Assembly: GCA_001636495.1 (NCBI GenBank)
Contig: KV440964.1
Location: 3,302,666 to 3,366,665, forward strand
Direction of reading: 5' to 3'
DNA: 64,000 nt
Source of the DNA: Sutcliffiella horikoshii
GTDB taxonomy: Bacteria > Bacillota > Bacilli > Bacillales > Bacillaceae_I
Translations under genes and position numbers: made by a program
Shown: one piece after another, positions 2,673 to 61,333 of the stretch
How positions within the stretch are numbered: the stretch's first letter is position 1
Layout: every line of letters starts with the position of its first letter
The notes under the pieces: model-generated
What the model saw: only the letters and a program-made list of their open reading frames with translations
What the model was told of the DNA's origin: nothing
Database searches by the model: none

Positions 2673-2807
2673 CGCCGCTGTTCCTTTCCGCAAATAGCTT
2701 CGCTTTCCACGGGGCGACCTTGAGCCTCCTCGGCGTTCGCCTGCGGGGTCTCAAGATTGTCGCTACTCCCCCGTAGGAGTCTACGCTATTTGCTCCAATC
2801 CACAGCT
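2673..2807 (+). repeat. Type A GC-rich intergenic repeat, copy A1
   Basis: The roughly 130-bp unit runs from CGCCGCTGTTCC to GCTCCAATCCACAGC. Its core is GGGGCGACCTTGAGCCTCCTC followed by GCGGGGTCTCAAGATTGTCGC, so CTTGAG/CTCAAG and GCGAC/GTCGC can fold back. Four other type A copies occur in this window (23220, 39498, 45663, and 61201 inverted). It is much richer in GC than its surroundings. Together with B1 it fills most of the gap between the 38-aa gene and the LysM gene. Confidence 0.8.
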
Positions 2808-2868
2808 AGAAACCAGTTACATCTTTTAGATAGTTTTTAGTTTTTTTTGGGTGAATGATACTTCCTTA

Positions 2869-2990
2869 TTGATTGCAGTGGAAGGCGCGCAGACTCCCGC
2901 GGGAGGAAGGGACAGGTAAGACCCCGCAACGGAGTGAGGAGGCTTACGGACCGCCCGCAGGAAAGCGAAGCGCCTGGAACGGAAATCAAC
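2869..2990 (-). repeat. Type B GC-rich intergenic repeat, copy B1
   Basis: This unit begins near TTGATTGCAGTGGAAGGCGCG and ends GCGCCTGGAACGGAAATCAAC. Its reverse complement shares the frame GAGCCTCCTC…GCGGGGTCTC…CTCCCGC with type A, so A and B are related and lie head to head about 60 bp apart. The same paired layout recurs at 23.2-23.6 kb and 45.7-46.0 kb. The open frame across it (2826-3053, minus) is a by-product of the repeat. Confidence 0.8.
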
Positions 2991-3030
2991 CGGATTATAA
3001 ACTTTCTTAGTTTTTAAAAAAGTCCACGAA

Positions 3031-3061
3031 AAAAAGAGATGCATCCGACTCATCTCTTTTT
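3031..3061. terminator. Bidirectional terminator-like hairpin
   Basis: AAAAGAGATG and CATCTCTTTT form a 10-bp stem around a 9-base loop, with A and T runs on the two sides. It lies between the repeat pair and the LysM gene end. I see no gene in 3062-3284. Confidence 0.6.
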
Positions 3062-3284
3062 TCCTGGCATTAAGTTTGGGAAGTAGCCATTTTTCACAGG
3101 TAAGGGTTCAGGTTGACTGGTTGCATCTATTCATTATGAAAAAGGGGAGTAATTCATGACATGTTAGATTTGGCAACATCTTTGTTACGGCAAAGAAGTA
3201 TATATCAACCTTACAACACCTATATTAGCTCTTGTTTATTAAGCTTGTTTAATGCCTATATTAATGTTCTGTAAATCTTTCCTT

Positions 3285-4304
3285 TTATAAAACTCTTACC
3301 GCCTTCACCGCTCTCGGTTTCCAGTATGTATTATAGGAAGCAAATGCGACACCAGTGTTCGTTGCAGCATGCAAAAGTGTGTTGGAGTCCATCACGATGG
3401 ATACATGATTGATTACTCCGTCCCCTTCCGTATCGAAAAATACAAGGTCCCCTTTACGGATTTCACTTAGCGGTATTTCCTTTCCAACATTCCCTTGCTG
3501 AGCAGAGGTTCTTGGAAGATTGATGCCATTTTCAGCAAAAACTCTTACCGTATAGGAAGAACAGTCAAACGCGTCCGTTCTGTTGGTAGATGCTCCGTAC
3601 AAATATTTTGCTCCTAAATACTTTTCCCCTGTTTTAATGATGGCATCGGCTTTTTCTTGCCAAGAAGAATTATCACCAACTGGAGCACTTGTTGCATTTC
3701 CTGGAATCGTTATTACTTGTCCAATCGAAATACGGTTAGCATCCTTGATAGCTGGGTTGGCATTTAATAATGCGCTCAATGTTACACCGTGTCTGCTTGC
3801 AACAGAAGAGAGGTTGTCCCCGCTTTTAATGGTGTAAGTCCCTGAAGCTGGAGCAGGATTACTAGGGATCGGCGCTGGTTGGGAAGGCTGACTTGGAGCG
3901 GATGGGGCTCCAGCAGCCACATTAACTTTTTGCCCGATAAAGATTCTGTTTACATCTGTAATGGACGGATTCAATTTCAGCAGATTAGCTAGTGTCGTTT
4001 GATGATTTCTAGCAATCACTGACAGAGAGTCTCCGGCTTTTATCGTATATGTAGATGTCGTCGGTTGGCTAGGGGCAGGTTGCGTTGTGCCCGATCCAGC
4101 CGCCTTCAAGGATAGCCTTTGACCAGGGAAGATAAGGTCATTTTTCAGGTTGTTCCACGTCTTGATATTGTTTACCGTCACCTGATGGTTACTCGCAATC
4201 TTCCATAGGGAGTCACCTGATTTTACGGTATAATCAGACGCATAAGCATGTCCAGAAAACATAAAAGAAGTTATAAGGGCACCTGCAATTACTTTCTTTT
4301 TCAT
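3285..4304 (-). CDS. Secreted LysM-NlpC/P60 peptidoglycan endopeptidase (LytE/CwlS-like)
   Basis: This 339-residue exported cell-wall hydrolase probably cuts D-gamma-glutamyl-meso-DAP bonds, as known for LytE, LytF and CwlS. A signal peptide ends near AYA-SD (about residue 23). Three LysM domains (about 24-67, 86-129, 156-199; each YTIKAGDSL-like) are separated by Pro/Ser linkers. An NlpC/P60 domain occupies about 215-339. The catalytic Cys is in DAFDCSS, and the His residues are in INHVSIVMD and LLHAATN. GGAGAATGGAACAATC precedes ATG. Domain order and length match B. subtilis LytE, but a paralogue (CwlS-like) cannot be excluded, so no symbol is given. Confidence 0.88.
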   Translation of the reverse strand: MKKKVIAGALITSFMFSGHAYASDYTVKSGDSLWKIASNHQVTVNNIKTWNNLKNDLIFPGQRLSLKAAGSGTTQPAPSQPTTSTYTIKAGDSLSVIARNHQTTLANLLKLNPSITDVNRIFIGQKVNVAAGAPSAPSQPSQPAPIPSNPAPASGTYTIKSGDNLSSVASRHGVTLSALLNANPAIKDANRISIGQVITIPGNATSAPVGDNSSWQEKADAIIKTGEKYLGAKYLYGASTNRTDAFDCSSYTVRVFAENGINLPRTSAQQGNVGKEIPLSEIRKGDLVFFDTEGDGVINHVSIVMDSNTLLHAATNTGVAFASYNTYWKPRAVKAVRVL

Positions 4305-4456
4305 GATTGTTCCATTCTCCTCATAATTTTACTTTTTTCTATGTATAAAATGATGGTAGCATATATTTTCCAACAATAAAATATAAATTTCTTCATCAAC
4401 TCTTTTAAATCGACAAAAAGCTTGCAGATTCATCTTCTCTACAAGCTTTCCAGTGT

Positions 4457-5353
4457 CTAAATTCCTGCAGAACGTTGCAACCGCTTCGCAATCTCCATAA
4501 AATCCTCCTGAGATATGCCTGGTGCAAATTCCTCTGGCACGTTTTCTAAATCTGGCATTGGCCCTCCAGGCGGTGTCCCCTGTATCACCTCAAGCCTCCC
4601 ACCATCTTCTGGATGACTACCTTTCCAGATCATTGCCACATCCTTGTAATCAGTAGCACTAAAGGTGTACAGCTTTCTATGCACTCCTTCTGCCTCAAAT
4701 TTTCTGGTCGTTTCAAACGCTTTGTTTTCCAAACTAGGTATTGGGACAAGCTTGGTAATATCCACTCCTGTCGCTATTTCCAGCGCCTTGGCATACGCTA
4801 TTACGTGAACGCCGCCGCGCACCAAAAGATACCCAATCATCTCCCTTGCCACAGGGTTGTCAGTCATTTGATATACCCGCATTTTATGGGTTCTGGCCCC
4901 GCACTCCAGGAAAAAGTTGTGAAGCAGGTCTAACACAAGGTTTCCACTGTTAAAGACATTATCACCCGTCCACGGCCTTCCCATAGAATCCCCCGGGAGT
5001 GCTGTCTGTCCATTCACGATATAATGATAGGTATTGCGCAAATCCTTTGTATCCCTTAGAGGGGTCGCATCAGGTGGAGCAGGGTATGTAACCCCCTCAA
5101 GCATCAGATTGATTGTCGTAGTGACCAACTCGACATGTCCAAGTTCCTCTGCTGTAATACTTGCGACCAGGTCAAAGAAAGGTTTCAGCTTCTTTTTATT
5201 TCGGAAGTTGAATGATTGAAACATATAGTTGTTCAGCGTGGACATTTCGCCAAACTTCCCTCCAAGCAATTCCTGTACAGCAGCCGCACCATTTGGGTCG
5301 GGGTTTTTCGGTTTAGGCAACGGTATCTGCAGTCGATTCATCCGTGTAAACAT
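4457..5353 (-). CDS. Manganese catalase family protein
   Basis: This 298-residue protein has the four-helix-bundle Mn-catalase pattern. The metal-ligand segments are visible: E in AAVQELLGGKFGEM, EELGHVELV, and ARTHKMRVYQMTDNPVAREMIGYL followed by a GGVHV segment. The family removes hydrogen peroxide; relatives include B. subtilis YdbD and the shorter spore-coat protein CotJC. GAGGAGGGTGAAAAA precedes ATG. A sigma-E-like promoter lies upstream, which suggests mother-cell expression and a spore-coat-related role. It is longer than YdbD, with a Pro-rich C-terminal tail (PPGGPMPD). Confidence 0.88.
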   Translation of the reverse strand: MFTRMNRLQIPLPKPKNPDPNGAAAVQELLGGKFGEMSTLNNYMFQSFNFRNKKKLKPFFDLVASITAEELGHVELVTTTINLMLEGVTYPAPPDATPLRDTKDLRNTYHYIVNGQTALPGDSMGRPWTGDNVFNSGNLVLDLLHNFFLECGARTHKMRVYQMTDNPVAREMIGYLLVRGGVHVIAYAKALEIATGVDITKLVPIPSLENKAFETTRKFEAEGVHRKLYTFSATDYKDVAMIWKGSHPEDGGRLEVIQGTPPGGPMPDLENVPEEFAPGISQEDFMEIAKRLQRSAGI

Positions 5354-5393
5354 TTTTTCACCCTCCTCTAAAACTTACAGAAAGCTCTATTTA

Positions 5394-5421
5394 CTTGTAT
5401 GAGAGAAGGAAATTGTCCTAT
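5394..5421 (-). promoter_or_regulatory. Candidate sigma-E promoter of the Mn-catalase gene
   Basis: On the minus strand a -10 CATACAAG (5394-5401; sigma-E consensus CATACAnT) lies 17 bases from ATA (5419-5421) within TCATAGG. This is a pattern match only. Confidence 0.4.
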
Positions 5422-5465
5422 GACAGGAAGATGGCTTTTCGCGACCTTACCGGGCATTCGCCCAT

Positions 5466-5493
5466 ACACAATGGGTGTTTGTAACATAAGGTA
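5466..5493 (+). promoter_or_regulatory. Candidate sigma-K promoter of the YjcZ-like gene
   Basis: AC (5466-5467), a 17-base spacer and CATAAGGTA (5485-5493) match the sigma-K consensus AC-N17-CATAnnnTA exactly. They lie about 30 bases before the tiny spore gene. Confidence 0.6.
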
Positions 5494-5524
5494 GAGTATC
5501 AACTTCAGAAAGGGGAGAGGTTAA

Positions 5525-5617
5525 ATGAGCAAAGGCGCTGAATGTGGTTCAGGCTTTACACTTTTTATCATCTTATTTATTCTTCTTATCATCATCGGAG
5601 CGGCTTATTTGTATTAA
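5525..5617 (+). CDS. YjcZ-family tiny sporulation protein, 30 aa
   Basis: The frame encodes 30 residues: a Gly/Cys-containing N-terminus (MSKGAECGSGF) followed by one hydrophobic stretch (LFIILFILLIIIGAA) and a short tail. This is the pattern of the YjcZ / tiny transmembrane Bacillus spore family. AAAGGGGAGAGGTTAA precedes ATG, a sigma-K-like promoter lies upstream, and a strong terminator follows. Family members are associated with spores; their molecular function is not known. Confidence 0.85.
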   Translation: MSKGAECGSGFTLFIILFILLIIIGAAYLY

Positions 5618-5637
5618 AAAGTAAATTCTTAACGTAT

Positions 5638-5670
5638 CGCAGGGCATGCAAACCGCACCCTGCGTTTTTT
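5638..5670 (+). terminator. Terminator of the YjcZ-like gene
   Basis: CGCAGGG and CCCTGCG form a 7-bp stem followed by TTTTTT. Confidence 0.85.
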
Positions 5671-5751
5671 CATTCTTTTCAAAGAATAAATTAACATAAT
5701 TTAGGAGCAATAGGTCAAGCTATTGTTAGAGTAATGGCTGGAGGAGTTTAT

Positions 5752-5808
5752 ATGAAGTGGATAAAATCATCAGAAGTACATACATATAAAGGGCCAATCT
5801 ATGAATAA
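5752..5808 (+). CDS. Possible 18-codon leader peptide
   Basis: GGAGGAG lies close before an ATG that opens an 18-codon frame (MKWIKSSEVHTYKGPIYE). Its stop overlaps the start region of the following gene. The ribosome site is stronger than that of the next gene. It may couple translation, or it may be chance; nothing similar is known to me. Confidence 0.3.
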   Translation: MKWIKSSEVHTYKGPIYE

Positions 5809-6274
5809 ATCCCTTGAACGACTATTATGGAGTATTGCCCTCCCAGGCTTTGGCCAATTACTCAACAAGAAATACATCAAGGGATTAGTGTTTATATTCC
5901 TGGAATTCCTTATTAATGTCCAAGCAAATTTTAATTCGATCATCATGTACAGTTTTAATGGGGACATTGAACGGGCATTCCTGGAGACGAACTATTTATG
6001 GCTTATGTTCTATCCATGTTTATATTTTTTTGCGATGTGGGATGCCTTTAAAGATGCTGGCGGAGGGAAAGCACCATATTCCTATCTTCCTTTTATAAGC
6101 TGTGCCTACCTTGTAACAGTAGGATTGATGCTATCTGGTAAAATAAAGCTTTTCGGAGTTCTGGTTGGACCTGTATGGATGCCTATGCTATTTGTCATTC
6201 CTGGGCTATTGCTCGGCTTTTCAGTAAGGGGAATAATCTTATATGTAGAGAATAGGAAAATTCGGGAGGATTGA
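5801..6274 (+). CDS. Multi-pass membrane protein with PGFG motif, 157 aa
   Basis: No named family is recognised. The protein has hydrophobic segments near residues 8-42, 64-80, 95-112 and 122-145, and the motif ALPGFGQLLNKKYIKGL near the start. Its first 80 residues align by eye with each half of the protein at 32381-33145 (PGxG…, a conserved N, IxMxxxG, A, then W…Y-F-x-x-WD-x-x). It therefore seems to be the single-module form of that two-module protein. AAAGGG lies seven bases before ATG. It ends directly before the alpha/beta hydrolase, so the two are probably co-transcribed. Confidence 0.7.
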   Translation: MNKSLERLLWSIALPGFGQLLNKKYIKGLVFIFLEFLINVQANFNSIIMYSFNGDIERAFLETNYLWLMFYPCLYFFAMWDAFKDAGGGKAPYSYLPFISCAYLVTVGLMLSGKIKLFGVLVGPVWMPMLFVIPGLLLGFSVRGIILYVENRKIRED

Positions 6275-7054
6275 TTGTACATGGGGTATGTCCGTACAAG
6301 TGACAATGTGAAGATCTTCTATCGTTTGATCGGTTCCGGACCTAAGACCATTCTATTCATCCATCCACCAGGAATGGGACACGTCACATTTAAACAGCAA
6401 CTGCCATTATCCTCCCATTACCGGCTTTTATTTTTGGACTTGCGCGGTAATGGTAACAGCGAAAGAAGCGATGCCCCCATCAGGTTTTCCCTTCTAGCGA
6501 GTGACATCTTTGAAGTGTGTCAGCAGTTGGCAATTGATAAGGTGATAGTTTGCGGCTATTCCAACGGTGCTTCCATCGCACTTGAAACCAGCTTGAACTT
6601 CCCGGATATAGTGGAAGGACTAATATTGATCGGTGCTTTTCCCAAAGTCAATTCTTTTCTTCTGTATAATGAGTTCCTCCTTGGAATTCTTGCATCACAT
6701 TTTGATGGGTTGGGAATTATTGCGCGAACCATTGCCAGAGCGCATACCTATTCAAAAATATGGGAAGAGGAGCTAACTTCTTATATGATGAAAACAGATG
6801 CCAACACCCTACATCAATATTATACGGAAGGCCTAACCTATAACTGCACAGAAAGGCTCGCTGATATCACCGCACCAATGTTGCTCGTCTATGGCCAACG
6901 TGATTACTATGTTCACCATTACCATAAGGAATTTCTTTCCCGTCTTCCAAAAACCAAAGTCGTTTACATCACTGGCGCCAGACACCAAGTCCCAACAAAA
7001 TTCCCAAACGAACTTAACGCAATTACCAAAGAATTCATCCAGAGTCTTGGGTAG
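6275..7054 (+). CDS. Alpha/beta-fold hydrolase
   Basis: This protein of about 258 residues has a complete alpha/beta-hydrolase layout: HPPGMG oxyanion region, DLRGNGNS, nucleophile elbow GYSNGAS, acid in YGQRDYYV and His in GARHQVP. The substrate is unknown; lysophospholipases, esterases and quorum-quenching lactonases all look like this. The start is either TTG 6275, immediately after the previous stop and 5 bases from GGGAGG, or ATG 6281, 11 bases away. It shares a transcript with the PGFG membrane protein. Confidence 0.85.
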   Translation: MYMGYVRTSDNVKIFYRLIGSGPKTILFIHPPGMGHVTFKQQLPLSSHYRLLFLDLRGNGNSERSDAPIRFSLLASDIFEVCQQLAIDKVIVCGYSNGASIALETSLNFPDIVEGLILIGAFPKVNSFLLYNEFLLGILASHFDGLGIIARTIARAHTYSKIWEEELTSYMMKTDANTLHQYYTEGLTYNCTERLADITAPMLLVYGQRDYYVHHYHKEFLSRLPKTKVVYITGARHQVPTKFPNELNAITKEFIQSLG

Positions 7055-7076
7055 TTCCCATTCCGCCATATTAAAT

Positions 7077-7108
7077 AAAAGTGCCCTGACCGAAGCCAGA
7101 GCACTTTC
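7077..7108. terminator. Bidirectional terminator
   Basis: AAAAGTGC…GCACTTT hairpin between the converging hydrolase gene and the 95-aa gene. Confidence 0.65.
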
Positions 7109-7127
7109 ATCTTCATTGGGAGTGTGA

Positions 7128-7415
7128 TTACTTACTAGTAATGCCGGTATTTTTAACTTTCATGCCAGATGGAACACTCTCGTTAATGCAGTTGTGGGCG
7201 ATTTTCATTCTGCTTAAAGTTGTTTTAAGGGTGTCATTTGCATCTTTTTCCCGCTCCAATTGGATATTGGTCATATCCACCATGGCACGAACCACATTTT
7301 CAAAGGCAATTCTCAACTTTTCGTCCTGGAGGGACTGTCCGTCCTTGACAATCATTTTGACTAGCTCGTTCGCATAGAGATTCATTTTCTCAACCGTTTC
7401 CACTTTAGCTTTCAT
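7128..7415 (-). CDS. Hypothetical protein, 95 aa, helical
   Basis: This is a conserved-looking, charged, probably all-helical protein (MKAKVETVEKMNLYANEL…). ATG 7413-7415 is chosen because GGAGGAG lies just upstream; the longer frame from 7433 would translate the ribosome site itself (MEEEF). No signal peptide or membrane segment. Family not recognised; cytoplasmic and monocistronic. Confidence 0.6.
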   Translation of the reverse strand: MKAKVETVEKMNLYANELVKMIVKDGQSLQDEKLRIAFENVVRAMVDMTNIQLEREKDANDTLKTTLSRMKIAHNCINESVPSGMKVKNTGITSK

Positions 7416-7778
7416 CGCAAACTCCTCCTCCATTCGTCTCTTTAAATTTTATGAAAACCGGAAGTTCTACATGCCATACTGTTTTCTTTCACACTTTCCG
7501 TTCATCTCATCTTTTAATTATTCTATGATAATTGCTTAATTCCTTCCCCTCGACAAAACAAGCCTAAATCTACATCCTTTCGACCAAACATGCTCTGTCA
7601 TAACAAGAAACTTTACGAACAACCTACAAAAATCAACAAGCAAAAAAGAAGTAATAAAAATGCATCTTTTCGATATACGAAGTTTTTCACAATAACACCT
7701 GCTTTTTACACAAAAGCTATTTTCTTACAGAGTTTTATCATCTATAATATAGGAAATCGTGCAGAGGGAGTGATAAAG

Positions 7779-7967
7779 ATGAAACTCGTAGAACTTGCCG
7801 TAGAAAAGAAACGTAAACAAATGATACAGACTGCTTTCAAAACAGGATTAACCTCTGCCGAAACAGTGAGGCTGAGTCAAGAGCTCGATGAAATGTTGAA
7901 TGTCTTTATTCCTCCACCTTCTGAAGAACCGAGCAAGAATAAAAAAGATCGTTGCATCAACTTTTAA
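7779..7967 (+). CDS. Spo0E-like aspartyl-phosphate phosphatase
   Basis: The 62-residue product carries the Spo0E-family signature SQELDEMLN after a helical EKKRKQMI segment. Family members dephosphorylate Spo0A~P and delay sporulation. ATG 7779 with GAGGGAG upstream is chosen over the longer frame from 7590, whose first 60 residues show no family similarity. A TATAAT-like -10 lies at 7743-7748. Between 7434 and 7778 I see only the divergent promoter region. It contains two weak Spo0A-box-like sites on the minus strand (TTGTCGAG near 7551 and TTGGTCGAA near 7580). Confidence 0.8.
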   Translation: MKLVELAVEKKRKQMIQTAFKTGLTSAETVRLSQELDEMLNVFIPPPSEEPSKNKKDRCINF

Positions 7968-8003
7968 ATTGTGTATAATAATTTCAAATATATAGTTATT
8001 CAT

Positions 8004-8231
8004 TGATGAAAAAGAGAGTAGTCCATAGATGGCAAATGCTAAGCGAATCAGGGACGGTGGAAGCCTGATGGAAGTCTTTGGACGAAGCGCACTTTAGAGA
8101 TGAACGGATACGTCCTCCATACGGACGATAAGCGGCTTTCCTGAGAGGGAAGGCAATTAGAGTGGTACCGCGGGCATATGAAACCAAGCTCGTCTCTTCA
8201 ATATAATTTGAAGAGGCGGGCTTTTTATTTT
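8004..8231 (+). promoter_or_regulatory. T-box leader of argS, specifier CGC (Arg)
   Basis: The antiterminator T-box AGAGTGGTACCGCGG lies at 8159-8173. A terminator follows at 8187-8228 (long GC stem, loop, CTTTTTATTT). In Stem I, GTCC (8021-8024) pairs with GGAC (8080-8083), leaving AGTA on one side and GAAG-CGC-A on the other. This puts the arginine codon CGC (8088-8090) in the specifier position. A promoter TTGCAT-N16-TATAAT (7952-7979) overlaps the end of the Spo0E-like gene. Uncharged tRNA-Arg should allow read-through into argS. Confidence 0.92.
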
Positions 8232-8287
8232 TGAATTGGGAGAACAGCCTTTATTATTTACATAAATTTTAATAGGAGATGATTCAT

Positions 8288-17612: not shown

Positions 17613-17622
17613 TGTGTAGAGC

Positions 17623-23049: not shown

Positions 23050-23167
23050 TATGCTTCCCTCCCCTCATTCTAAAAATGAACCCTCAGAAATTCTTCTCTT
23101 ATTTTTCCTATAATATTGGTTAATATACCTTCTCTTCCAAGACATGGCTGAATAGAACCTAAGAAAA

Positions 23168-23551
23168 ACCGGGCAGAAACCGCCCGGTACTTTTAAAGCT
23201 TTTAGTTGTTTGGTTAATTCACCGCTGTTCCTTTCCGCAAATGGCTGCGCTTTCCGCGGGGCGACCTTGAGCCTCCTCGTAACACTTGCGGGTCTCAAGA
23301 TTGTCGCTTCTCCCCCGCTGGAGTCTTCGCCATTTGCTCCAATCCACCGCTAGAAATTGCGTAAACGAAAAGTTAATGCAGCTAGCTTAATTGCTATTCG
23401 TTAACCTTTAGATGAATGAAGTCATCTTGTTGATTGGAGTGGAAGGCGCGTAGACGCCAGCGGGAGGAAGGGACAGGTGAGACCCCGCAAAGGAGTGAGG
23501 AGGCTCACGGACCGCCCGCAGGCAAGCGAAGCGCCTGGAACGAAAATCAAC
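23168..23551. repeat. Composite repeat: CCGGGC hairpin, type A copy A2 and type B copy B2
   Basis: A terminator-like hairpin ACCGGGC-N7-GCCCGGT (23168-23188) is followed by type A (23220-23351) and type B (23430-23551) units, head to head. The order, the hairpin and the spacing are almost the same at 45605-45978. The block lies upstream of the germination operon and downstream of the YolD-like gene. The open frames across it are by-products. I see no gene in 23050-23602. Confidence 0.82.
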
Positions 23552-23602
23552 AGAATTATATACTTTCTTATTCCTATAAAAAAAAGAGCCCTATTAGGAC
23601 TC

Positions 23603-34585: not shown

Positions 34586-34600
34586 GATACTGTGCACACT

Positions 34601-34724
34601 GTTGATCTTCGTTACAGGCGCTTCGCTTTCCTGCGGGCGGTCCGGGAGCCTCCTCGGCAAGCCTGCGGGGTCTCCCCTGTCCCTTCCTCCCGCGGGAGTC
34701 TTCGCGCCTTCCACTACGATCAAC
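34601..34724 (+). repeat. Type B repeat, lone inverted copy B3
   Basis: This is the reverse complement of the other type B copies (TTGATCTTCGTTACAGGCGC … GCGCCTTCCACTACGATCAAC). It is the only B copy without an A partner and lies between two converging genes. Confidence 0.8.
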
Positions 34725-34736
34725 CTGGTTATTGCA

Positions 34737-39454: not shown

Positions 39455-39497
39455 TCTACATTCCTCCGATTTAAGTAAAATAAAGGTTCTGGTATAC

Positions 39498-39629
39498 GCC
39501 GCTGTTGATTTCCGCAATAGGCTTCGCTTTCCGCGGGGCGACCTTGAGCCTCCTCGTTTCACTGCGGGGTCTCAAGATTGTCGCTACTCTCCCGCTGGAG
39601 TCTACGCCTTTTGCTCCAATCTCCAGCTG
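39498..39629 (+). repeat. Type A repeat A4 inside the metY leader
   Basis: A full type A unit (CGCCGCTGTTGATTTCC … GCTCCAATCTCCAGC) lies between the proximal SAM-riboswitch terminator and metY, so it is present in the read-through mRNA. Confidence 0.82.
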
Positions 39630-39649
39630 GAAACCTGCTCTTATCAACA

Positions 39650-39807
39650 AACAAAAATAAAAACCTCTTCATAAGAAGAGGTTGATACTCCTCCTCTTAT
39701 CTGTCAGGCTACTCCGCCTGCAGGAATTAGCACCAACTCAAGAATATTGATTCTTGAAGGTTGCCGGACTTCATAGGGCCTGATCCCTCAGTCACTCTAG
39801 ATAAGAG
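39650..39807 (-). promoter_or_regulatory. SAM (S-box) riboswitch, proximal copy
   Basis: The aptamer runs from 39807 to 39694, with P1 CTCTTATC/GATAAGAG. The conserved minus-strand blocks GAGGGATCAGGCCC, ATGAAGTCCGGCAACC and GGTGCTAATTCC are present. The terminator AACCTCTTC-TTAT-GAAGAGGTT-TTTATTTTTG follows at 39650-39683; its 5' arm can pair with P1 3' sequence. Confidence 0.95.
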
Positions 39808-39902
39808 TTATTTAGTTAAGTAACACGTTAACTTGAAATAGTATCTAATTTACGTTATTTATCAGATTGGCTAAATATAACTATTTTTTGCATTCCTCCC
39901 TG

Positions 39903-40059
39903 AGAAATAATAAAAACCCCTTCCTAAGAAGAGGTTATCGTCATAAGCCCTCTTCTTATCTTTCAGATACGTGATCTGCAGAAATTAGCACCTTTCCAAC
40001 ATACATTGCAGGTTGCCGGGCTTCATCGGGTCTGTCCCTCCGCCACTCTAAATAAGAAG
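39903..40059 (-). promoter_or_regulatory. SAM (S-box) riboswitch, distal copy in tandem
   Basis: A second complete aptamer lies at 39952-40059 (P1 CTTCTTAT/ATAAGAAG; AGAGTGGCGGAGGGACAG; GATGAAGCCCGGCAACC; GGTGCTAATTTCTGC). It has its own terminator at 39903-39936 (AACCTCTTC-TTAG-GAAGGGGTT-TTTATTATTT). It lies about 145 bp upstream of the proximal copy on the same transcript. Confidence 0.94.
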
Positions 40060-45423: not shown

Positions 45424-45604
45424 TATAGCCACTTCCTTTTCTGACACTAAAATTGTTAATAATAGTATCCTCATTAAAATCTCTATGTATCTTACCGCTT
45501 TTTGTTAAAAAATCAGATGAATAATTTTCACCTATTCTGGTTATACTGTACCCTCTATTCTACAAAATTTGCGAGAAAAGGGAAAGAAAAAGCCAATAAG
45601 AGAA

Positions 45605-45978
45605 ACCGGGCAGAAACCGCCCGGTCCTTTTAAAGCTAAAAAAATATAGTTGTTCTGTTAATCGCCGCTGTTCCTTTCCGCAAATGACTGCGCTTTCCGC
45701 GGGGCGACCTTGAGCCTCCTCGTTTCACTGCGGGGTCTCAAGATTGTCGCTACTCTCCCGCTGGAGTCTACGCCATTTGCTCCAATCCACAGCTAAAAAC
45801 CAGTTCCCATTTTTAAAGAATTTTTAGTTCTCCTTTTGATGAATGCTATAACCTTGTTGATTGGAGTGGAAGGCGCGCAGACGCCCGCGGGAGGAAGGGA
45901 CAGGTGAGACCCCTGAAGCGTTGTGAGGAGGCTCACGGACCGCCCGCAGGCAAGCGAAGCGCCTGAAACGGAAATCAA
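45605..45978. repeat. Composite repeat: CCGGGC hairpin, A5 and B5
   Basis: Hairpin ACCGGGC-N7-GCCCGGT (45605-45625), type A (45663-45794) and type B (45856-45978), in the same order and spacing as at 23.2-23.6 kb. It lies between the MurE-like gene and pepF. I see no gene in 45424-46026. Confidence 0.82.
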
Positions 45979-45992
45979 ACTTAATTTTCAAA

Positions 45993-46026: not shown

Positions 46027-47721
46027 TTATAATGCTTTATCATTTACTTCATTTAAATAAGACTCAATTTCACCAACAACCGATTCTACGCACCCGTCCT
46101 CAAACGGTGAACGCAGACCTGCAAATTTCACTAGATCTACAAATGACTTGCTTCCGCCTTGTTTGCAAAGCTCCAAATAGGAATTCCACGCTTCCTCAGC
46201 GTTTTCTTGAGACAGCTTCCAATATTGCAATGCACAAATTTGAGCCAGTGTGTAGTCGATGTAATAGAATGGACTGCGATAAATATGGCCTTGTCGTTGC
46301 CAAAACCTTCCTGACTCCAAATAAGAATTTCCATCAAAGTCACGGCCAGGCATATATTTCTGTTCCATTTCCCTCCATGCCTTACTTCTTTCAGCAGGAG
46401 TGGCATCCGGATTTTCATACACGAAGTGCTGGAATTCATCTACTGCCACTCCGTATGGAAGGAAAGAGATTGCTCCACTCAAATGGGAGAACTTGTACTT
46501 CTCTGTATCTTCCTTGAAGAACAATTCCATCCAAGGCCATGTAAAGAATTCCATGCTCATGGAGTGGATTTCACACGCCTCATAAGTAGGCCAGTTATAC
46601 TCTGGTACATCAAAGTCACGGCTCATATACACCTGGAAGGCATGGCCCGCTTCATGGGTAAGAACGTCAATATCACCACTTGTGCCATTAAAGTTCGAGA
46701 AAATGTAAGGTGTTTTATATGTTGGGATGTATGTGCAATATCCCCCAGCTTCTTTTCCTTTTTTCGCAACAAGGTCCATCAGATTCTTATCAATCATGAA
46801 TTGGAAGAACTCTTTTGTTTCCTCGGATAGCTCTTCATACATCTGCTTTCCATTTTCAATGATCCATTCTGGAGTCCCCTTAGGTTTTGCGTTACCAGAC
46901 TGGAACTTAAAGCCTTCGTCATAGTACTTCAGGGAATTGACACCAATACGCTCTTGCTGTCTTTCAGCTAGTTTTGCTACAAGGGGCACAATGGATGCTT
47001 TCACTTGGTCGCGAAATTTCGCAACCATTTCCGCATTATAATCTGTACGGGTCATACGCGCATAGCCAAGCTCCACGAAGTTTTGATAGCCCAATTTCTT
47101 CGCCATTTTCGTACGGACTTTTACAAGCTGGTCGAAGATTTCATCGAATTCTTCTTGGTTTTCCTGGAAGAAACCGAATTTTGCTTCACTTGCCTGCTTA
47201 CGGACTTCACGGTCTTCGGACTCTGTATAAGGATCCAATTGAGCGAGAGTCAGTTCTTCGCCATTAAAATCAATTTTTGCAGAAGCGACTAACTTGGAGT
47301 ATTTAGTCATCAGCTTATTTTCGTGCTGCAAGTCTTCAATAATGGAATCATCAAATGTCTTTAATTCACATTCAGCGAGCGCGAAAAGCTGTGTTCCCCA
47401 TTTCGCTTCCAGTTCCTTTCGGAAAGGGGATTTAACGAGTGCTTTATAGTATTTTGTATCCCATGACTTGGTTAGCGGCTCAATTTCATCTAGGAAATCC
47501 TGTTCTTCCTTGTAAAATTCGTCATTTGTATCAATGGAATGACGAATATACACCAAATTGAAGTCCGTGCTCAAATGATTACGAACATCATTGATCTCCT
47601 GAATCGCTTCCTCCTGCTCTCCAACAGAACCAGCCGCCTCAAACCTTTCCAAAGCAGCTATAAACTTTTTCTCCACCTCATCCACTTTAGGACGAGTATA
47701 ACTAAAATCCTCAAATCTCAT
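46027..47721 (-). CDS. M3-family oligoendopeptidase (PepF-like)
   Basis: The 564-residue zinc metallopeptidase has the HExxH site in DVLTHEAGHAFQVYMS (about residues 355-370) and the third ligand region YEACEIHSMSMEFF. M3 oligoendopeptidases degrade short cytoplasmic peptides. No signal peptide. The palindrome GGGGTCTGTCCCC lies upstream at about 47790-47802. Confidence 0.9.
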   Translation of the reverse strand: MRFEDFSYTRPKVDEVEKKFIAALERFEAAGSVGEQEEAIQEINDVRNHLSTDFNLVYIRHSIDTNDEFYKEEQDFLDEIEPLTKSWDTKYYKALVKSPFRKELEAKWGTQLFALAECELKTFDDSIIEDLQHENKLMTKYSKLVASAKIDFNGEELTLAQLDPYTESEDREVRKQASEAKFGFFQENQEEFDEIFDQLVKVRTKMAKKLGYQNFVELGYARMTRTDYNAEMVAKFRDQVKASIVPLVAKLAERQQERIGVNSLKYYDEGFKFQSGNAKPKGTPEWIIENGKQMYEELSEETKEFFQFMIDKNLMDLVAKKGKEAGGYCTYIPTYKTPYIFSNFNGTSGDIDVLTHEAGHAFQVYMSRDFDVPEYNWPTYEACEIHSMSMEFFTWPWMELFFKEDTEKYKFSHLSGAISFLPYGVAVDEFQHFVYENPDATPAERSKAWREMEQKYMPGRDFDGNSYLESGRFWQRQGHIYRSPFYYIDYTLAQICALQYWKLSQENAEEAWNSYLELCKQGGSKSFVDLVKFAGLRSPFEDGCVESVVGEIESYLNEVNDKAL

Positions 47722-54546: not shown

Positions 54547-54582
54547 CCGTTCCGTTTGGGCGGTTTTTTTATTTCTATTTGT

Positions 54583-54756: not shown

Positions 54757-54788
54757 GGTCATTCGCTCCTTCTCTCTCTAAATACCAC

Positions 54789-54994: not shown

Positions 54995-55768
54995 ATGAAA
55001 TTTTTTTTGGTGGTCATATTGAGCTGTACCATTCTTTTCACCTTCTCTACTCAGAAGGCTTCTGGCGAAGAACATACCAGCAACAAAGTCGCCATTGTAA
55101 TTGATGACTTTGGTAATAACATGAAAGGGTCAGAGGAAATCCTTCAATTACCTGTTTCATTGACAGTGGCCGTCATGCCTTTCCTATCAACGACCAAAAA
55201 GGATGCTGAAATGGCTCACCGCTTAGGACATGAAGTGATTTTGCATCTTCCCATGGAGCCTTTAAAAGGGAAAAAGAGCTGGCTTGGCCCTGGAGCCATC
55301 ACATCCGACCTATCAGATGAGGAAATTTACAAAAGAGTAAATGATGCCATCGATTCCGTCCCCTATGCAGTAGGAATCAACAACCATATGGGGTCAAAGA
55401 TAACTGCCGATGAACGGATTATGAGTGTGATCCTTGGTATCTGCAAAGAGAGAAACCTTTATTATCTAGACAGTAAAACAACAAAAAAAAGTGTTGTCGC
55501 TAAATTGGCCACAGAAATGGGAGTTCCTTTTTTAGAGAATGAGATGTTTTTTGACGAAGTTTTTACAACAAATCACATAGTAAAGCAGACTACTTCTCTT
55601 ATCAAGAAAACAGAGGTGGATGATTCCATTATTGCGATCGGACATGTTGGGGTAGTAGGGGAGAAGACTGCGAGTGTATTAAAGCTATATATACCGAAGT
55701 TAAAGGATAAAGCTGATATTGTCACACTATCCAATATATTGATTGATAAAGAAATATTATTGCATTAA
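54995..55768 (+). CDS. Divergent polysaccharide deacetylase family protein (YibQ-like)
   Basis: The 257-residue secreted protein starts with a signal peptide (MKFFLVVILSCTILFTFSTQKASG) and then has the DUF610/divergent deacetylase domain: AIVIDDFGNN, LTVAVMPFLST, HEVILHLPMEPL, NNHMGSKIT and GHVGVVGEKT. ATG 54995 with GGGTGGGCGT upstream is chosen over TTG 54959. A TTGTCGAA sequence (54949-54956) resembles a Spo0A box. Confidence 0.82.
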   Translation: MKFFLVVILSCTILFTFSTQKASGEEHTSNKVAIVIDDFGNNMKGSEEILQLPVSLTVAVMPFLSTTKKDAEMAHRLGHEVILHLPMEPLKGKKSWLGPGAITSDLSDEEIYKRVNDAIDSVPYAVGINNHMGSKITADERIMSVILGICKERNLYYLDSKTTKKSVVAKLATEMGVPFLENEMFFDEVFTTNHIVKQTTSLIKKTEVDDSIIAIGHVGVVGEKTASVLKLYIPKLKDKADIVTLSNILIDKEILLH

Positions 55769-55812
55769 AAGAACGAGCGGTCTCCAATTAAAGAGGACCG
55801 CTCGTTCTTTTA
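55768..55812 (+). terminator. Terminator after the deacetylase gene
   Basis: AAGAACGAGCGGTC…GACCGCTCGTTCTT stem followed by TTTT. Confidence 0.9.
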
Positions 55813-56448
55813 TTTTTGGACATCTATCTGATCTACGTGTGTAACCCTGAACTCTTTTTCTCCAAGCTTCTTAACTAGTTTGTTCAGTTTCTCCTCTGGC
55901 AGTTCGGCAGGAAGATTCACTATAATACGTCTCAAGTATTTTTCTCCATTGTCAAGAGTAAGCAAACCGTCGATATTGACGTCTTTTAACATGGAGACGA
56001 GATCCTTGATGGCACCTTTATGTTCAATTGTAGCAATGGTCAGAGTATATCCACCTGTCTTCATACCAAATGAATCGGCAAGCACATCCATGACATTAGC
56101 GTGTGTCAAAATACCCAGGAATTCATTTTCTTCGTTCAGCACTGCGATAAACGGAAGACGCTTGATTGTGAAGAAAGCCTTGAAAAAGGAGTCCTCTTCA
56201 AAAATAAATGCGTCTTGATTTTTAATCAGCACCTCTATGGAATCGTCCCCACTGCCTTTTTCTTCATATAGATAATCCAGCAGATGAATTTTATAGACAA
56301 GACCCAGGAAGTTGTGGCCATCATTGGAAAGAATGGGAATACAACGGTAACCAGTATCCTTGATTTTTTCATATGCTTGCTTCACTGTATAAGACGGTTC
56401 ACAGTACTGCACATCATGTTTAGGTACAAAATTGTAACGGACCTTCAT
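55810..56448 (-). CDS. CBS-pair / ACT-like protein, CbpA-like
   Basis: The 212-residue cytoplasmic protein has two CBS motifs (about 10-60 and 75-130: VPKHDVQYCEPSYTVKQAYEKI; FLGILTHANVMDVLADSFG) and a C-terminal ACT-like domain (about 137-200). The layout matches cyclic-di-AMP-binding CbpA-type proteins. Nucleotide binding is inference. ATG 56448 with GGGAGTG upstream is chosen. Confidence 0.8.
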   Translation of the reverse strand: MKVRYNFVPKHDVQYCEPSYTVKQAYEKIKDTGYRCIPILSNDGHNFLGLVYKIHLLDYLYEEKGSGDDSIEVLIKNQDAFIFEEDSFFKAFFTIKRLPFIAVLNEENEFLGILTHANVMDVLADSFGMKTGGYTLTIATIEHKGAIKDLVSMLKDVNIDGLLTLDNGEKYLRRIIVNLPAELPEEKLNKLVKKLGEKEFRVTHVDQIDVQK

Positions 56449-56554
56449 TTCTCTCACTCCCAATCAATATGTATGTCATGATACTACTATAACATTAGCA
56501 TAATTGACTTTTAAGGTAAAGAAAATTCATAATATTTTAACTACTTGCCTCGTT

Positions 56555-57898
56555 CTATTTTGCAGCGTTGGCCGCCACCTGAACCGCATCCCAAACAGTT
56601 GCATATGGCGGTGCATAACTAAGGTCGAGCATCCCTATTTGTTTGGTGGTCAATTCGCAAGTAATAGCCGTCGCGAAGATATCCATCCGCTTGGCGATAG
56701 CGTTATCCTTTCCAATCATCTGCGCCCCCAGCAACTTTTGTGTGCCCGTTTCATAAACAAGCTTGATATGAACGGTTTCTGCTCCCGGGTAGTAGGAAGC
56801 GTGGTTATTCGTTTCAATCACTACGGTATCAACATCAAGCTTTTCTTTTTTTGCTTCTTTTTCAGTCAGTCCCGTCATAGCTGCAGTCCATTCCATTATT
56901 TTCACAACATTTGTTCCGAGTATTCCTGGAAACGTGGAGGAGATGCCAGCAAGATTATCCGCAGCCACTCTTCCGTGCTTATTTGCCGTTGTCCCCAAAG
57001 CAATATTGACCGGCTTGTTCAATAGGAGGTGGTTACTTGTTGCACAGTCCCCCGCAGCATATATGGAAGGGAGACTTGTCTTCTGATGGGCGTCCACGAT
57101 GATTGCTCCGTTTTCGAGCATATCCATTCCCAGATCCTTTACAAATTCTGTGTTTGGTTTATTGCCGATGTTGACAATTACAGCATCCACCTCAACGGAG
57201 TTCTTGTTCGTGACAATATTTGTCACTTTATTATTCGATACTTTAAGTTCCTTCACTTCTTCCCCGGTCCGAATGGAAACACCTTCTAATGATTCCAGAG
57301 TATCCGCAATTATATTTGCCATTTCCTGGTCATAATTGGGTAAAATCTGGTCCTGGAGTTCGATGACCACAACCTCTTTCCCCAACTCTATCATGGTTTC
57401 GACTAGCTCCATTCCAATATAGCCGCCACCGATGATTCCTACCTTCTTTATTTCTTCATCTAAAAAATACTCCCTCATGTTTATTCCATCATTAAGGGTT
57501 TTCAAGGTGTGGACATTTGTCGCCTCTTTAGGGACGAAAGGCGGAACAATTGGCTTGGAACCTGTTGCAATCAGAAGTTTATCATAACTGACGATGGTTT
57601 CATCTCCTGAGTTAAGATTCTTCACATTCACGCTTTTATTTTCTGGATCCACACTGATTACTTCATGATGGATATGGACCTGAATGTTTCGCTCTTCAAA
57701 ATCTTCCACTGTTCTTGCAAGCAGGTCTTCATGCGATTTTGTCACTCCGGATATGTAATATGGCAAGCCACATGCACCGTAAGATATATGCGAATCCTTT
57801 TCAAACACACTGATTTTCACCGTTTCATCCAATCGTCTCAATTTGGAAGCTGCACTCATTCCTCCGGCTATTCCACCAATAATAACAACATGTTCCAT
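56555..57898 (-). CDS. CoA-disulfide reductase family flavoprotein
   Basis: The 447-residue FAD/NAD(P)-binding protein starts EHVVIIGGIAGGMSAASKLRR and has the single active-site Cys in SYGACGLPYYISG (about residue 43), which marks the CoADR/NADH oxidase group and excludes classic disulfide reductases. A second Rossmann GGGYIGMELVE and the C-terminal dimer domain are present. It keeps low-molecular-weight thiols reduced; relatives act on CoA disulfide or persulfides. AGGAGGAAACACT precedes the ATG. It follows the mtn genes but after a terminator. Confidence 0.88.
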   Translation of the reverse strand: MEHVVIIGGIAGGMSAASKLRRLDETVKISVFEKDSHISYGACGLPYYISGVTKSHEDLLARTVEDFEERNIQVHIHHEVISVDPENKSVNVKNLNSGDETIVSYDKLLIATGSKPIVPPFVPKEATNVHTLKTLNDGINMREYFLDEEIKKVGIIGGGYIGMELVETMIELGKEVVVIELQDQILPNYDQEMANIIADTLESLEGVSIRTGEEVKELKVSNNKVTNIVTNKNSVEVDAVIVNIGNKPNTEFVKDLGMDMLENGAIIVDAHQKTSLPSIYAAGDCATSNHLLLNKPVNIALGTTANKHGRVAADNLAGISSTFPGILGTNVVKIMEWTAAMTGLTEKEAKKEKLDVDTVVIETNNHASYYPGAETVHIKLVYETGTQKLLGAQMIGKDNAIAKRMDIFATAITCELTTKQIGMLDLSYAPPYATVWDAVQVAANAAK

Positions 57899-57985
57899 AG
57901 TGTTTCCTCCTAGTGATGTTCTTGCGTTATTTTCTACCATTATATTCCCTCTTAGAGGGGAAAGTAGTCATGAAATCAAACCAAA

Positions 57986-58016
57986 AAAGATGACTCATAT
58001 TGCGGAGTCATCTTTA
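57986..58016 (-). terminator. Terminator of the mtnWXBD operon
   Basis: AAAGATGACTC…GAGTCATCTTT stem followed by TTTT on the minus strand. Confidence 0.85.
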
Positions 58017-58021
58017 ATAGG

Positions 58022-58555
58022 TTAATTATTCACTTTTTCATTTTCATAGATTGGTACCCAGCCTTCTGTTGTAACGAAGATTCGGACTGCGACCACTTTA
58101 CGGTCATCCATAAGAGTGAAATAGTGGCGAACATTTGGTGGCACTGAGATCAGATCACCTGGCTCAAGCTCTACATCAAAGAATGAACCATTTTTGCCTT
58201 GGATAACGAAAATTCCGTGTCCACTCACAATAAAGCGTACTTCATCGTCGGTGTGGTGATGTTCTTTGTTGAAGTTTTGCAAAAGCTGCTCCAAATTCGG
58301 TGTTGTGTCAGACAAGGAGATGACATCCTGAGCCTTGTATCCTCTTTTTAGAGAAATTGCGGCAATCTCATCCTTGAAAACAGTTAATATTTCTTCCTTG
58401 TTCTCGTCCGTCAATGAGAAGTTTTCCTGTAGATGTTGAGGTAGCTTTGCAATGTCCCAGTTTTCATAGATAACTTCATTTTCATTTAAAAAGCTCTCCA
58501 CTGATTCCTTTCCACTGATTCTTTCATTCGTTTCGTGTAATCTGATTTCTGCCAT
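58022..58555 (-). CDS. mtnD: Acireductone dioxygenase
   Basis: The 177-residue cupin has the metal-ligand cluster EHHHTDDEVRF and a third His in PPNVRHYF. It splits the acireductone of methionine salvage to 2-keto-4-methylthiobutyrate and formate. Last gene of mtnW-X-B-D. Confidence 0.95.
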   Translation of the reverse strand: MAEIRLHETNERISGKESVESFLNENEVIYENWDIAKLPQHLQENFSLTDENKEEILTVFKDEIAAISLKRGYKAQDVISLSDTTPNLEQLLQNFNKEHHHTDDEVRFIVSGHGIFVIQGKNGSFFDVELEPGDLISVPPNVRHYFTLMDDRKVVAVRIFVTTEGWVPIYENEKVNN

Positions 58556-58589
58556 GCTTAGTTCCTCCTTAAGGGTGATTTTGTAATAG

Positions 58590-59228
58590 TTAGATGGATA
58601 TTTTCGGTTGCACCGAATTTTTTACACTGAGGAGCTTTAGGTGATAGCTGAACAGAAACTCCCAAGCCTCCAGGTATTTTTTTGCTTCAAAGGCTGTCTT
58701 CCCCCACACGGTAATTCCGTGATTCTTGATGAGAACGGCGCCTGCATCAGCAATAACATGGTGAGAGAATTCATCCGCAAGTGTAGGAATATCTGCATGA
58801 TTTCTTATGATTGGTATTTTCACTTCTGCATCTTCCTCCCAAATTCCGAAGGCTTTGATGATTTCCTGTCCTTTAAATGTAATTTCTCCGTGGTCGCCAT
58901 ATAACTCAGATATGACATTATTATCTATGGTATGGACATGCAGAGAACAACCTGCCATCGTCTTCCGGTACACTTCCAGATGCAGCAATGTTTCTGCAGA
59001 AGGTCTCAAGTCTGTGTTTTCGACGGCCTTTCCTTGTGCATCCACTAGGAGGAAATCTTCTGGTGTTATCTTTCTTTTATCCTTCCCGCTTGAAGAAACC
59101 AGAAACTGCAAAGGATTTTGTGATACTTTTATAGAAAGATTACCGCTAGTGCCATAAAACCAATCACGTCCAGCCAGCTCTTCTTTTACTTCAGATAGCT
59201 CTGTCCATCTCTTTAAAAATTGACTCAT
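58590..59228 (-). CDS. mtnB: Methylthioribulose-1-phosphate dehydratase
   Basis: This 212-residue class II aldolase-like enzyme has [23 protein letters not shown] and [10 protein letters not shown] (zinc ligand His residues). It dehydrates methylthioribulose-1-P. Its ATG overlaps mtnX. Confidence 0.94.
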
Positions 59229-59890
59229 GCGGTCACCTCCCGTTTTTTCAAAATCTCCATCACATCATAGAACGTTTCAAAAGGAGAGAATGCAATGGCG
59301 TGCTCCTCACATTTTTCAATCAGGAAATCCCTCGCAATCACTTGGTCGGCGAGTTTTGCCGCTTCAAGATCTGTGATGGAATCTCCAATGACAATTTTAT
59401 AGGTTCCTGGTTCCGCAAGTTTCCGGATAATCGATGGCTTGCAACAACCACAATCGTTTTCACATTCTGAATCACACGTATGTGGCCAGAGGATGTTTAT
59501 TTTTTCTCCTGAAAAGTCGGATCCGTTGCAATAGATATGCTCATCTTCCACCAACCCTTTCAAAAGTGGTTCCACAAAAAAGTCGATGCCACCTGAGACG
59601 ATGTAGAGTGGGATCTCTTCTTTCTTTGTGAAAGCTACAAATTCCTTAAAGCCTTCCCGTATCTCCGCGTGATCTATTATATATTCGGTAATATCCTTTT
59701 TTTGCTTAGAAGGAAGCAGAGCGAACATCTTCCCTACCCCATCCTTGATGGAGACTTCCTGGGATAAAACCTTATTTTTAATATCGTCCCATTCTTCTGG
59801 GGCGAATTTCTTCATGATGGCAATGATGTTATCACTATTGGTGATGGTTCCATCAAAGTCGCAAAAAATCATCGGATTTCTCACTGTCAT
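59225..59890 (-). CDS. mtnX: HK-MTPenyl-1-P phosphatase
   Basis: This 221-residue HAD phosphatase has [23 protein letters not shown] and [11 protein letters not shown]. It acts after MtnW to give acireductone. Overlaps both neighbours by four bases. Confidence 0.95.
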
Positions 59891-61131
59891 TTTACAACCT
59901 CCACACTACCCCACTGTTTGAGGGCGATCTGCAGTTCAGGGTGCGTTTCTCCGTAACCTGCCAGGGATGCGCCACTCCTTACCGCTTCCACCGCTTGTCG
60001 GAAAGCTTTCCCCCCGGCTGCCGCACCAAGCTCATGACCATGGACACCACCACCCGCATTGATGACCGCATCATTTCCAAAATCTTGATAAAGTAACGGA
60101 ACCAATCCTGGATGGATTCCAGCTGATGGCACAGGCAAGGTCGCTTTAAAATGATCGTCTGGTACTGTTAGAGCATCACGTATTGCCAGTGCCTGTTCTT
60201 TCGGCAGAGCAACACTTCCGTAAGGGGAAGGAAACAAGGAAAAGTCAGCTCCTGCATATCGAAGTAGTTTACCTAACAGTAATTCATTGGAAATACCATA
60301 AAATTCAGATGGCGTGATTGCCCCGCTAACAGCAGGATGCGCCATGATCGGGATGGATATTTCCTTGTCCTCCGCAAGGCTTTGAAGGGTATCAAGACCA
60401 TAGGCAAATACATTGAATAGCAGAAAATCAGCACCAAGCTCTACAGCCCTTTTCGCTTTATCTTTCAGATCAAATGTACGTCCTGTCAGGTTTACTGCAT
60501 ACCTTGCACGATGACCAGTTTCTTCTTTCACTTCCTCAAGGACCCTTCTGCCTTCCGTTATCCGCTTATCAAAGGGAGTAAGTTCGTTTTCAAACAAAAT
60601 CTCGTCATCCTTGATAAAATCTAGTCCCCCAAGTGCCTGCTCCTTCAATTGATTGGAAAGAAAGTTAAGGTCCCTGCCGATAACACCTTTAAATATGCTC
60701 ATAATAAATGGTCTTTCATGCACACCTGTAATGGAACGAAGTCCTTCTATTCCGAATTTCGGCCCAGAATAAGCGCGCTTCAAGTCATCACCGAATTCCA
60801 GGTCCAAAAGTTTAATCTCCCCGTCCAGTGATAGCTTGCCAAATACAGTCGTCATTATCGCAGGAAGGTCATTGCTAAAATTCAACCCTGGATATGCAAT
60901 TTGGATAATACCTCGAGTAACGGTTTTCCCCAAGTATGCATCCACCCTGTCGCTTGAAGAAATTTCTTTCACACTTACGACTCTGCCTTTATGCTTTTTT
61001 AACTGTTCCTGTTCAAGCTGAGGCAAATCTGTCCAGGAACCTATGGTAAGTCCGAGTGCGATACCCTCCGCTTTTTTCTCAAGATTCCCTTTATGATCAT
61101 GAACCAGATAGGTTGCTAGAATTTCAGACAT
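59887..61131 (-). CDS. mtnW: Diketo-methylthiopentyl-1-P enolase, RuBisCO-like
   Basis: The 414-residue type IV RuBisCO-like protein has the lysine site in [11 protein letters not shown], with HPAVSGAI and [17 protein letters not shown]. It has exactly the length known from B. subtilis MtnW. ATG 61131 is chosen with AAAGGGTG upstream. First gene after the third SAM riboswitch. Confidence 0.96.
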
Positions 61132-61200
61132 TAAGTACACCCTTTCTTCTGTTAAAACATAAGCACTATTAAAGTTGACGGTTGATAATGAGAGGGTTCC

Positions 61201-61333
61201 CAGCTGTTAATTGGAGCAAAAGGCGTAGACTCCTGCGGGAGAGTAGCGACAATCTTGAGACCCGCAAGTGTTACGAGGAGGCTCAAGGTCGCCCCGCGGA
61301 AAGCGAAGCCTATTGCGGAAATCAACAGCGGCG
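61201..61333 (-). repeat. Type A repeat A6 (inverted) inside the mtnW leader
   Basis: This is the reverse complement of the other type A copies (TTGGAGCAAAAGGCGTAGAC … GCGGAAATCAACAGCGGCG). It sits between the SAM-riboswitch terminator and mtnW, so, like A4, it is in read-through mRNA, but in the opposite orientation. Confidence 0.82.

Follow-up and report, generated by a model that had tools for sequence, protein, structure and literature searches.

Several described systems of short repeats and insertion sequences (IS) are close to the family of hairpin-forming repeats considered here, which occurs in nine copies within a stretch of 64,000 nucleotides from Sutcliffiella horikoshii (GCA_001636495.1, contig KV440964.1, positions 3,302,666 to 3,366,665; the whole stretch is termed the window). 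The BOX, RUP, and SPRITE repeats of Streptococcus pneumoniae are likewise small and resemble miniature inverted-repeat transposable elements (MITEs), with nested insertions and, in the case of SPRITE, a terminator-like form (PMC10969869); however, they belong to another host and were compared by description only, and in the present family one core is found across much of the order Bacillales. Bhal-1 of Bacillus halodurans, with 74 nt and 36 copies, is also a stem-loop repeat family of a Bacillaceae genome, the likeness being one of description and not of sequence (PMC2267715). Repetitive extragenic palindromes (REPs) are 20–40-bp palindromes with a GTAG or CGTC tag (PMC3733652), while the IS1272/IS1182 group transposes by replacing stem-loops and has an inverted-repeat target (PMC5678879), which recalls a unit lying in a palindrome at one locus of this study (L029). 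The repeats of PMC8161180 are tandem repeats and unrelated. Literature searches covering few subscription papers yielded no account of the present repeat; for short sequence fragments, the 25 of 106 papers listed are, judging from their titles, unrelated.

We consider it quite probable that these repeats are MITE-borne hairpin cores that were moved into intergenic DNA by transposases acting in trans. The original prediction had placed nine copies of two types, A and B, in the window, and a covariance model matched exactly nine, each within a few bases of the predicted position, with E values from 9.3e-24 to 1e-16. A tenth core copy was not found in the window at an E value of 0.01, and a repeat search also recovered both families at the earlier coordinates. 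The model, with 132 positions and 50 pairs, was built from 32 copies, two from the window and 30 from records with 11 genus labels; from 30 copies listed, four were left out (L022, which carries an insert, and L091, L103, and L119), and four others and the two window copies were added. A and reverse-complemented B align in the predicted common frame, AGCCTCCTC..GGGGTCT, and are two subfamilies of one hairpin core of ~130 nt. The three head-to-head A/B pairs were confirmed with spacings of 54, 71, and 57 bp, the bounds of which differ slightly from those of the covariance-model matches. In the first pair, core A1 (2677–2805, +) is followed by core B1 (2866–2993, −), both located by the covariance model and by alignments. 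The A/B pairs had been proposed to fold into one long hairpin; the calculated energy of the first pair is −154.2 kcal/mol, compared with a mean of −109.4 for shuffled sequences (z −10.2), and that of its reverse strand is −149.9 kcal/mol (z −7.8). None of 100 shuffles folded as well on either strand.

The A copies carry marks of transposition. On the frame strand, the full element reads GGCTCTGTTAAACG - core - ACTAACTTTAACAAAGCC, with ends of the GGCTCTGTTAAA kind and 8-bp target duplications like those of full-length IS1595-family elements in other Bacillales. Within the window, the covariance model and a scan for ends plus duplication delimited A5 as a MITE of 182 bp (61163–61344, −; core 61204–61329) with ends GCTCTGTTAAA and GCACTATTAAA and the target duplication AAAACATAA at 61154–61162 and 61345–61353. 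The A3 element (39485–39653, +; core 39501–39626), recognised by the covariance model and flanking repeats, is bounded by the duplication AAAATAAA at 39477–39484 and 39654–39661, and its right terminal repeat has decayed. Exact direct repeats of 9–10 nt flank A5 and the copies at L302, L305, L309, and L318. When a terminal repeat (at least 9 of 12) and an 8- or 9-bp duplication (one mismatch at most) were required jointly, 23 of 231 core matches from all species passed, A5 among them, compared with 2 of 854 shifted controls; the first window pair was counted twice, being also L001. The ends of the 23 were of the GGCTCTGTTAAA type in nine cases, of the GGCTNTTTTCGTA type in five, and of the GAGGCYRCTGAAAAA type, with 9-bp duplications, in two, while three belonged to a hairpin-duplication class and four had ends of no recognised type.

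Full-length partners of these ends were found elsewhere in the order. A transposase gene of the IS1595 family (PF12762) is present in 35 of 150 genomes, and 11 of the 33 loci examined had paired ends of the GGCTCTGTTAAA or GGCTNTTTTCGTA type with 7–8 of 8 bp duplicated. At three further loci, the best pairs had other ends and look like chance; at one of the three, L358, inspection by eye also revealed type-2 ends flanked by an exact duplication. Since the IS1595 loci share these paired ends and duplications, the A-type copies are, as judged from sequence, IS1595-type MITEs. The repeats are also short, multicopy, and without a transposase of their own, as the ~130-nt core, the 182-bp A5 element, and 241 exact-frame places in the host genome illustrate. 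IS1595-family MITEs are similar in their GGCTCTGTTAAA and GGCTNTTTTCGTA ends and 8-bp AT-rich duplications, matched by full-length copies elsewhere in Bacillales, but the present elements differ in holding a ~130-nt core with covarying helices that also lies inside units with other ends. IS1182 was rejected as the sole mobiliser: the host has one match to PF13751 (IS1182-type), located outside the window, for which the original prediction had noted no transposase, and its left end is unlike the A and B ends.

Filled and empty sites point in the same direction. The original prediction had offered a non-autonomous element as one identity of the repeats; this is supported by inverted repeats at the termini, by duplicated targets, by sites that are occupied in some genomes and empty in others, and by the identically ended full-length transposons of other Bacillales. 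The empty sites in relatives that it had proposed to look for were found at two places, in species of the same genus. The first is composite 3, a pair together with its own terminator, which represents an insertion behind a host terminator. It comprises core A4 (45667–45792, +), core B4 (45854–45980, −), which lies directly behind the terminator of a peptidase M3 gene (46027–47721), and an intrinsic-terminator-like hairpin at its end (45597–45637, −), which was found by the repeat search and is missing from the empty sites. At the corresponding place, 14 of 15 relatives have the terminator and no core, and the fifteenth has two different cores. In one relative (L341 and L344; G310:C1 1474463–1488545), ~14 kb of other DNA interrupts the peptidase M3 gene.

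The second place is that of A5, which is empty in the 10 relatives whose leader was inspected. A5 lies between an S-box terminator and a RuBisCO-like gene (59887–61140; Pfam RuBisCO_large). A core match within ~350 nt upstream of this gene was found in 4 of 16 genomes: behind the S-box terminator in the host, between the promoter and the S-box in L247 and L254, and, judged by coordinates only, in L253. The window holds three S-box riboswitches, within 39694–40058 and 61394–61499; Rfam calls an S-adenosylmethionine (SAM) riboswitch at 39694–39807 near A3 and another at 61394–61499 near A5. Both elements have inserted at S-box terminators, A3 in the leader of a gene for an enzyme of Cys/Met metabolism and A5 in that of the RuBisCO-like gene, and the right duplication of A3 (39654–39661) sits at the T-run of its terminator (by eye).

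The scale of nine copies in the original prediction proved too low. The exact pattern AGCCTCCTC-N6-24-GGGGTCT occurs at 241 places in the host genome, compared with none for the reversed control. The genome-wide covariance-model search that had been suggested did reveal further copies: with the 32-copy model, 150 of 952 host candidates were scored and all 150 matched, which corresponds to hundreds of copies without an exact total. One copy set retained 137 of 140 copies. Across the order, 265 of 397 genomes, belonging to 97 of 135 genera, had the pattern, with at most 289 matches per genome and two control matches seen in the table. In the host genus, 11 of 15 genomes (host included) had 182–289 matches, the others having 122, 96, 29, and 13. 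In a sample of the phylum, only 6 of 299 genomes had the pattern, namely, the host, a second genome of its order, a genome with 20 copies from a different order of the class, and three with 1–2 matches. Among the matches listed, record titles name Sutcliffiella, Rossellomorea, Neobacillus, Peribacillus, Planococcus, Halobacillus, Oceanobacillus, and Sporosarcina as holders, and single matches in distant phyla look like chance. Thirteen plasmid records hold the repeat, the best match lying without an annotated feature in 11 of them. Carriage by phages or viruses was not supported, as there was no match among 50,697 phage records and no core by profile in the 120 virus stretches among the pattern matches listed. 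At L047 (7413–7996, Psychrobacillus vulpis), three cores in the same direction lie ~180 and ~340 bp apart.

The position of pairs and B copies was determined in a host sample of 27 pairs, 26 B units, and 26 A units, from which three B units at locus edges were dropped for gene context. Among the pairs, 22 of 27 lay behind a codirectional gene, while convergent gaps held 10 of 23 single B units and 6 of 26 A units. The pairs have a conserved spacer in common, and many end distally in a terminator-like hairpin. In the window, composite 2, with core A2 (23224–23349, +) and core B2 (23427–23554, −), ends in such a hairpin of the GACCGGGC..GCCCGGTTTTTCTTA type (23160–23200, −; repeat search), and many other pairs have one at the same place (by eye). 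The single core B3 (34598–34726, +), located by the covariance model, has no recognisable outer ends in its flanks. Direct repeats of 12–15 nt flank 4 of the 27 pairs, one of them being mostly an A-run; none of 81 controls had a direct repeat of at least 11 nt. The placement behind genes and in convergent gaps, together with the spread of the core through the order, could indicate that the core is a module beneficial to the host, such as an insulator or a protector of transcript ends, which the host keeps and for which the MITE ends are a mere vehicle. However, hairpin-seeking insertion also explains the position, two members of the genus have only 13 and 29 copies, and 132 of the 397 genomes of the order have no pattern match. 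We regard a host-kept module as improbable.

A further class of units, some with B-type cores, lies between duplicated hairpins. In the host (L296), a relative (L329), S. horikoshii (L121), and Bacillus sp. ISL-34 (L041), the core has outer ends of the TGTAGACAAA / TTTGTCTACA kind and lies between two copies of a terminator-like hairpin; in L121 and L296, one or both of the outer ends have diverged. The stem-loop is duplicated in L121 (23 bp, exact), L296, and L329, and its two copies have diverged in L041. Such ends are rare; by motif, at least one was found at 8 of 243 cores and both at three. Although the IS1182 group resembles this class in its use of stem-loops, the TGTAGACAAA ends are unlike those of the host IS1182 copy.

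Orientation was compared between the half-genomes using the 40 best matches of each query. B orientation agreed with the split in 33 of 40 matches, a value reached by 1 of 2000 shuffles, whereas A orientation agreed in 25 of 40, reached by 1438 of 2000. Such a difference would be expected if the targets of B, but not those of A, had polarity. The bias of B, the head-to-head pairs, and a palindromic, intergenic, and high-copy nature would also suit a new system like REPs or bacterial interspersed mosaic elements, in which short palindromes are spread in single-stranded form by a Y1 transposase (REP-associated tyrosine transposase, RAYT). The unit of ~130 nt speaks against such a system, as do the terminal repeats and target duplications of A and some other copies, which Y1 transposition is not known to make. 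Furthermore, a constant GTAG or CGTC tag at the foot was not seen by eye. This explanation appears very unlikely.

The fold of the core is conserved. The compensatory changes that had been proposed as a check were found, with helices covarying strongly in the 32-sequence alignment: standard pairs made up 85.0% of cells, compared with 77.0% after shuffling and 39.5–47.3% with slid partners, although the structure tested was folded from the same sequences and is thereby favoured over the slid controls. Doubly changed cells numbered 110 against 38.9 in shuffled alignments, and 28 of 50 pairs had double changes against 17.7. RNAalifold alone gave 22 pairs, nine of them with double changes. The apical loops were also considered as candidate extra-stable DNA triloops. 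The conservation of AGCCTCCTC and GGGGTCT is partly by construction, as the loci of other species were picked by the frame pattern. The repeats matched no Rfam family at its cut-off; tsr24 was rejected as an identity at 12.8 bits (E 1.7) against a cut-off of 50. Thus, of the earlier suggestion of a structured RNA family, the conserved fold with compensatory changes stands, and a match to an Rfam family is absent.

Several observations weigh against moved, MITE-borne cores, and some of them favour a multicopy structured non-coding RNA family with the B-A-terminator composite as its gene. Besides the covarying fold, over all 50 pairs G-U cells outnumbered A-C cells by 96 to 37; 58 of the 96 came from two pairs, which read U-G along the frame strand in 32/32 and 26/32 sequences; the first of them sits inside the search pattern. 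Moreover, the composite is often preceded by a TATAAT-like stretch and closed by a terminator-like hairpin of its own. When the two U-G pairs were removed, however, the counts were 38 G-U and 37 A-C, and among the 36 pairs that lie outside the search pattern and are mainly Watson-Crick there were 15 G-U against 30 A-C cells. The TATAAT-like stretch was too variable between copies to be accepted as a conserved promoter (by eye). Insertion hallmarks and empty sites, the occurrence of A copies in both orientations, and the lack of an Rfam match at the cut-off also disagree with an RNA gene family, which we hold to be unlikely; the wobble counts led us to raise its probability slightly and to lower that of MITE-borne cores to a similarly small extent.

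There are further objections. No IS1595 transposase was found in the host, and a single genome among 16 of the genus encodes one; the copies could therefore be fossils. Only 23 of 231 core matches passed the scan for ends plus duplication, including the four without recognised ends. Simple direct repeats of at least 9 nt were in modest excess in the host sample, around A (5/26 vs. 3/78 controls), around B (6/23 vs. 4/69), and around pairs (4/27 vs. 4/81). The terminal repeat of the composite reaches 7 bp at best (TAAGAAA, by eye). At least one side of 22 of 23 single B units adjoins a gene 3′ end, yet the same holds for 22 of 26 A units, counts without a genome-wide baseline.

The core itself is carried by MITEs whose ends are of several types; the IS1595 types are firmly assigned. 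In Evansella (L029), it lies in a unit with ends GAGGCTGGGACA, in the middle of a palindrome and without duplication (by eye), and the left end of the host IS1182-type copy (L322) likewise reads GAGGCTGGGACA (by eye). The core is also a preferred site of insertion. An insert of ~55 nt, GCACGAAGGAAATGCG..CATTTTCGA, is found at the core point CTCCCG-CAGGA-GTC in many species and genera; we take it to resemble an IS605-type passenger. A profile made from ten seeds within cores (L114, two in L022, L026, L035, two in L077, L085, L089, and L254) found 19 places in 2.60 Mb, namely, the ten seeds and nine others. Of these nine, seven are no more than 30 nt from a core, namely, those in L018, L086, L098, L100, L112, and L275 and a further one in L085; cores make up 1.26% of the 2.60 Mb, much of which was chosen because it contains cores. 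The host match, L275, is weak.

Other sequences are also found in the core. Bacillaceae-1 RNA (RF01690; PMC2864571, PMC4333381), the strand of which is uncertain and for which CsrA binding has been suggested (PMC4333381), is a separate sequence of ~67 nt and not the core itself. Rfam called it inside or against a core in L073 (6119–6186), L027 (6961–7028), L078 (7009–7076), and L110 (2252–2318), of which L073 was scanned for its insert and the others were chosen by motif search. The motif occurs at five loci in the 2.60 Mb, none of them more than 7 nt from a core; one, L374, had been chosen for another reason and has a weak profile match only (3250–3283). A profile of the four copies gave six matches, corresponding to the five motif loci (four being seeds) and one place 168 nt away. 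This distribution suggests that Bacillaceae-1 RNA may be an inserted mobile sequence rather than a small RNA (sRNA) gene. In Sutcliffiella halmapala (L104, ~930–2850), a group II intron encoding an RVT_1/GIIM protein occupies the same core site as the inserts. In Peribacillus deserti (L099), inserts of ~190 and ~260 nt split the cores at 2352–2700 and 5700–6050, and these had no Rfam match at the cut-off.

Taken from sequence comparison, these data permit a tentative extension, which we consider possible but somewhat doubtful: the core may be a guest module passed between MITE families and, at the same time, a docking site used across much of the order, with RF01690 as a site-specific mobile element and not a gene for a regulatory RNA. 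The vehicles would be IS1595 elements with two kinds of ends, an IS1182-type element, GAGGCYRCTGAAAAA units with 9-bp duplications, and TGTAGACAAA units with hairpin duplication. Group II introns would recognise the core by its structure, as would small secondary elements and Bacillaceae-1 RNA. As the seeds were chosen inside cores, our estimate for this extension was lowered slightly.

In the case of MITE-borne cores moved in trans, transposases that are now missing or rare in the host would have moved the copies into intergenic DNA, often at terminators, where harm is presumably small. The fold may have been kept at least partly because the mobilising or inserting enzymes recognise a DNA hairpin, as a single strand or cruciform. 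A regulatory role in the host is not needed for what is seen. The finding means that intergenic DNA in much of Bacillales is shaped by a single element family, which reaches hundreds of copies in some genomes and extends to two SAM-riboswitch leaders in the window. If a core common to several MITE vehicles is also used as a dock, it would provide a natural system for studying hairpin-guided transposition in DNA, and at least one Rfam 'sRNA' family would have to be read differently.

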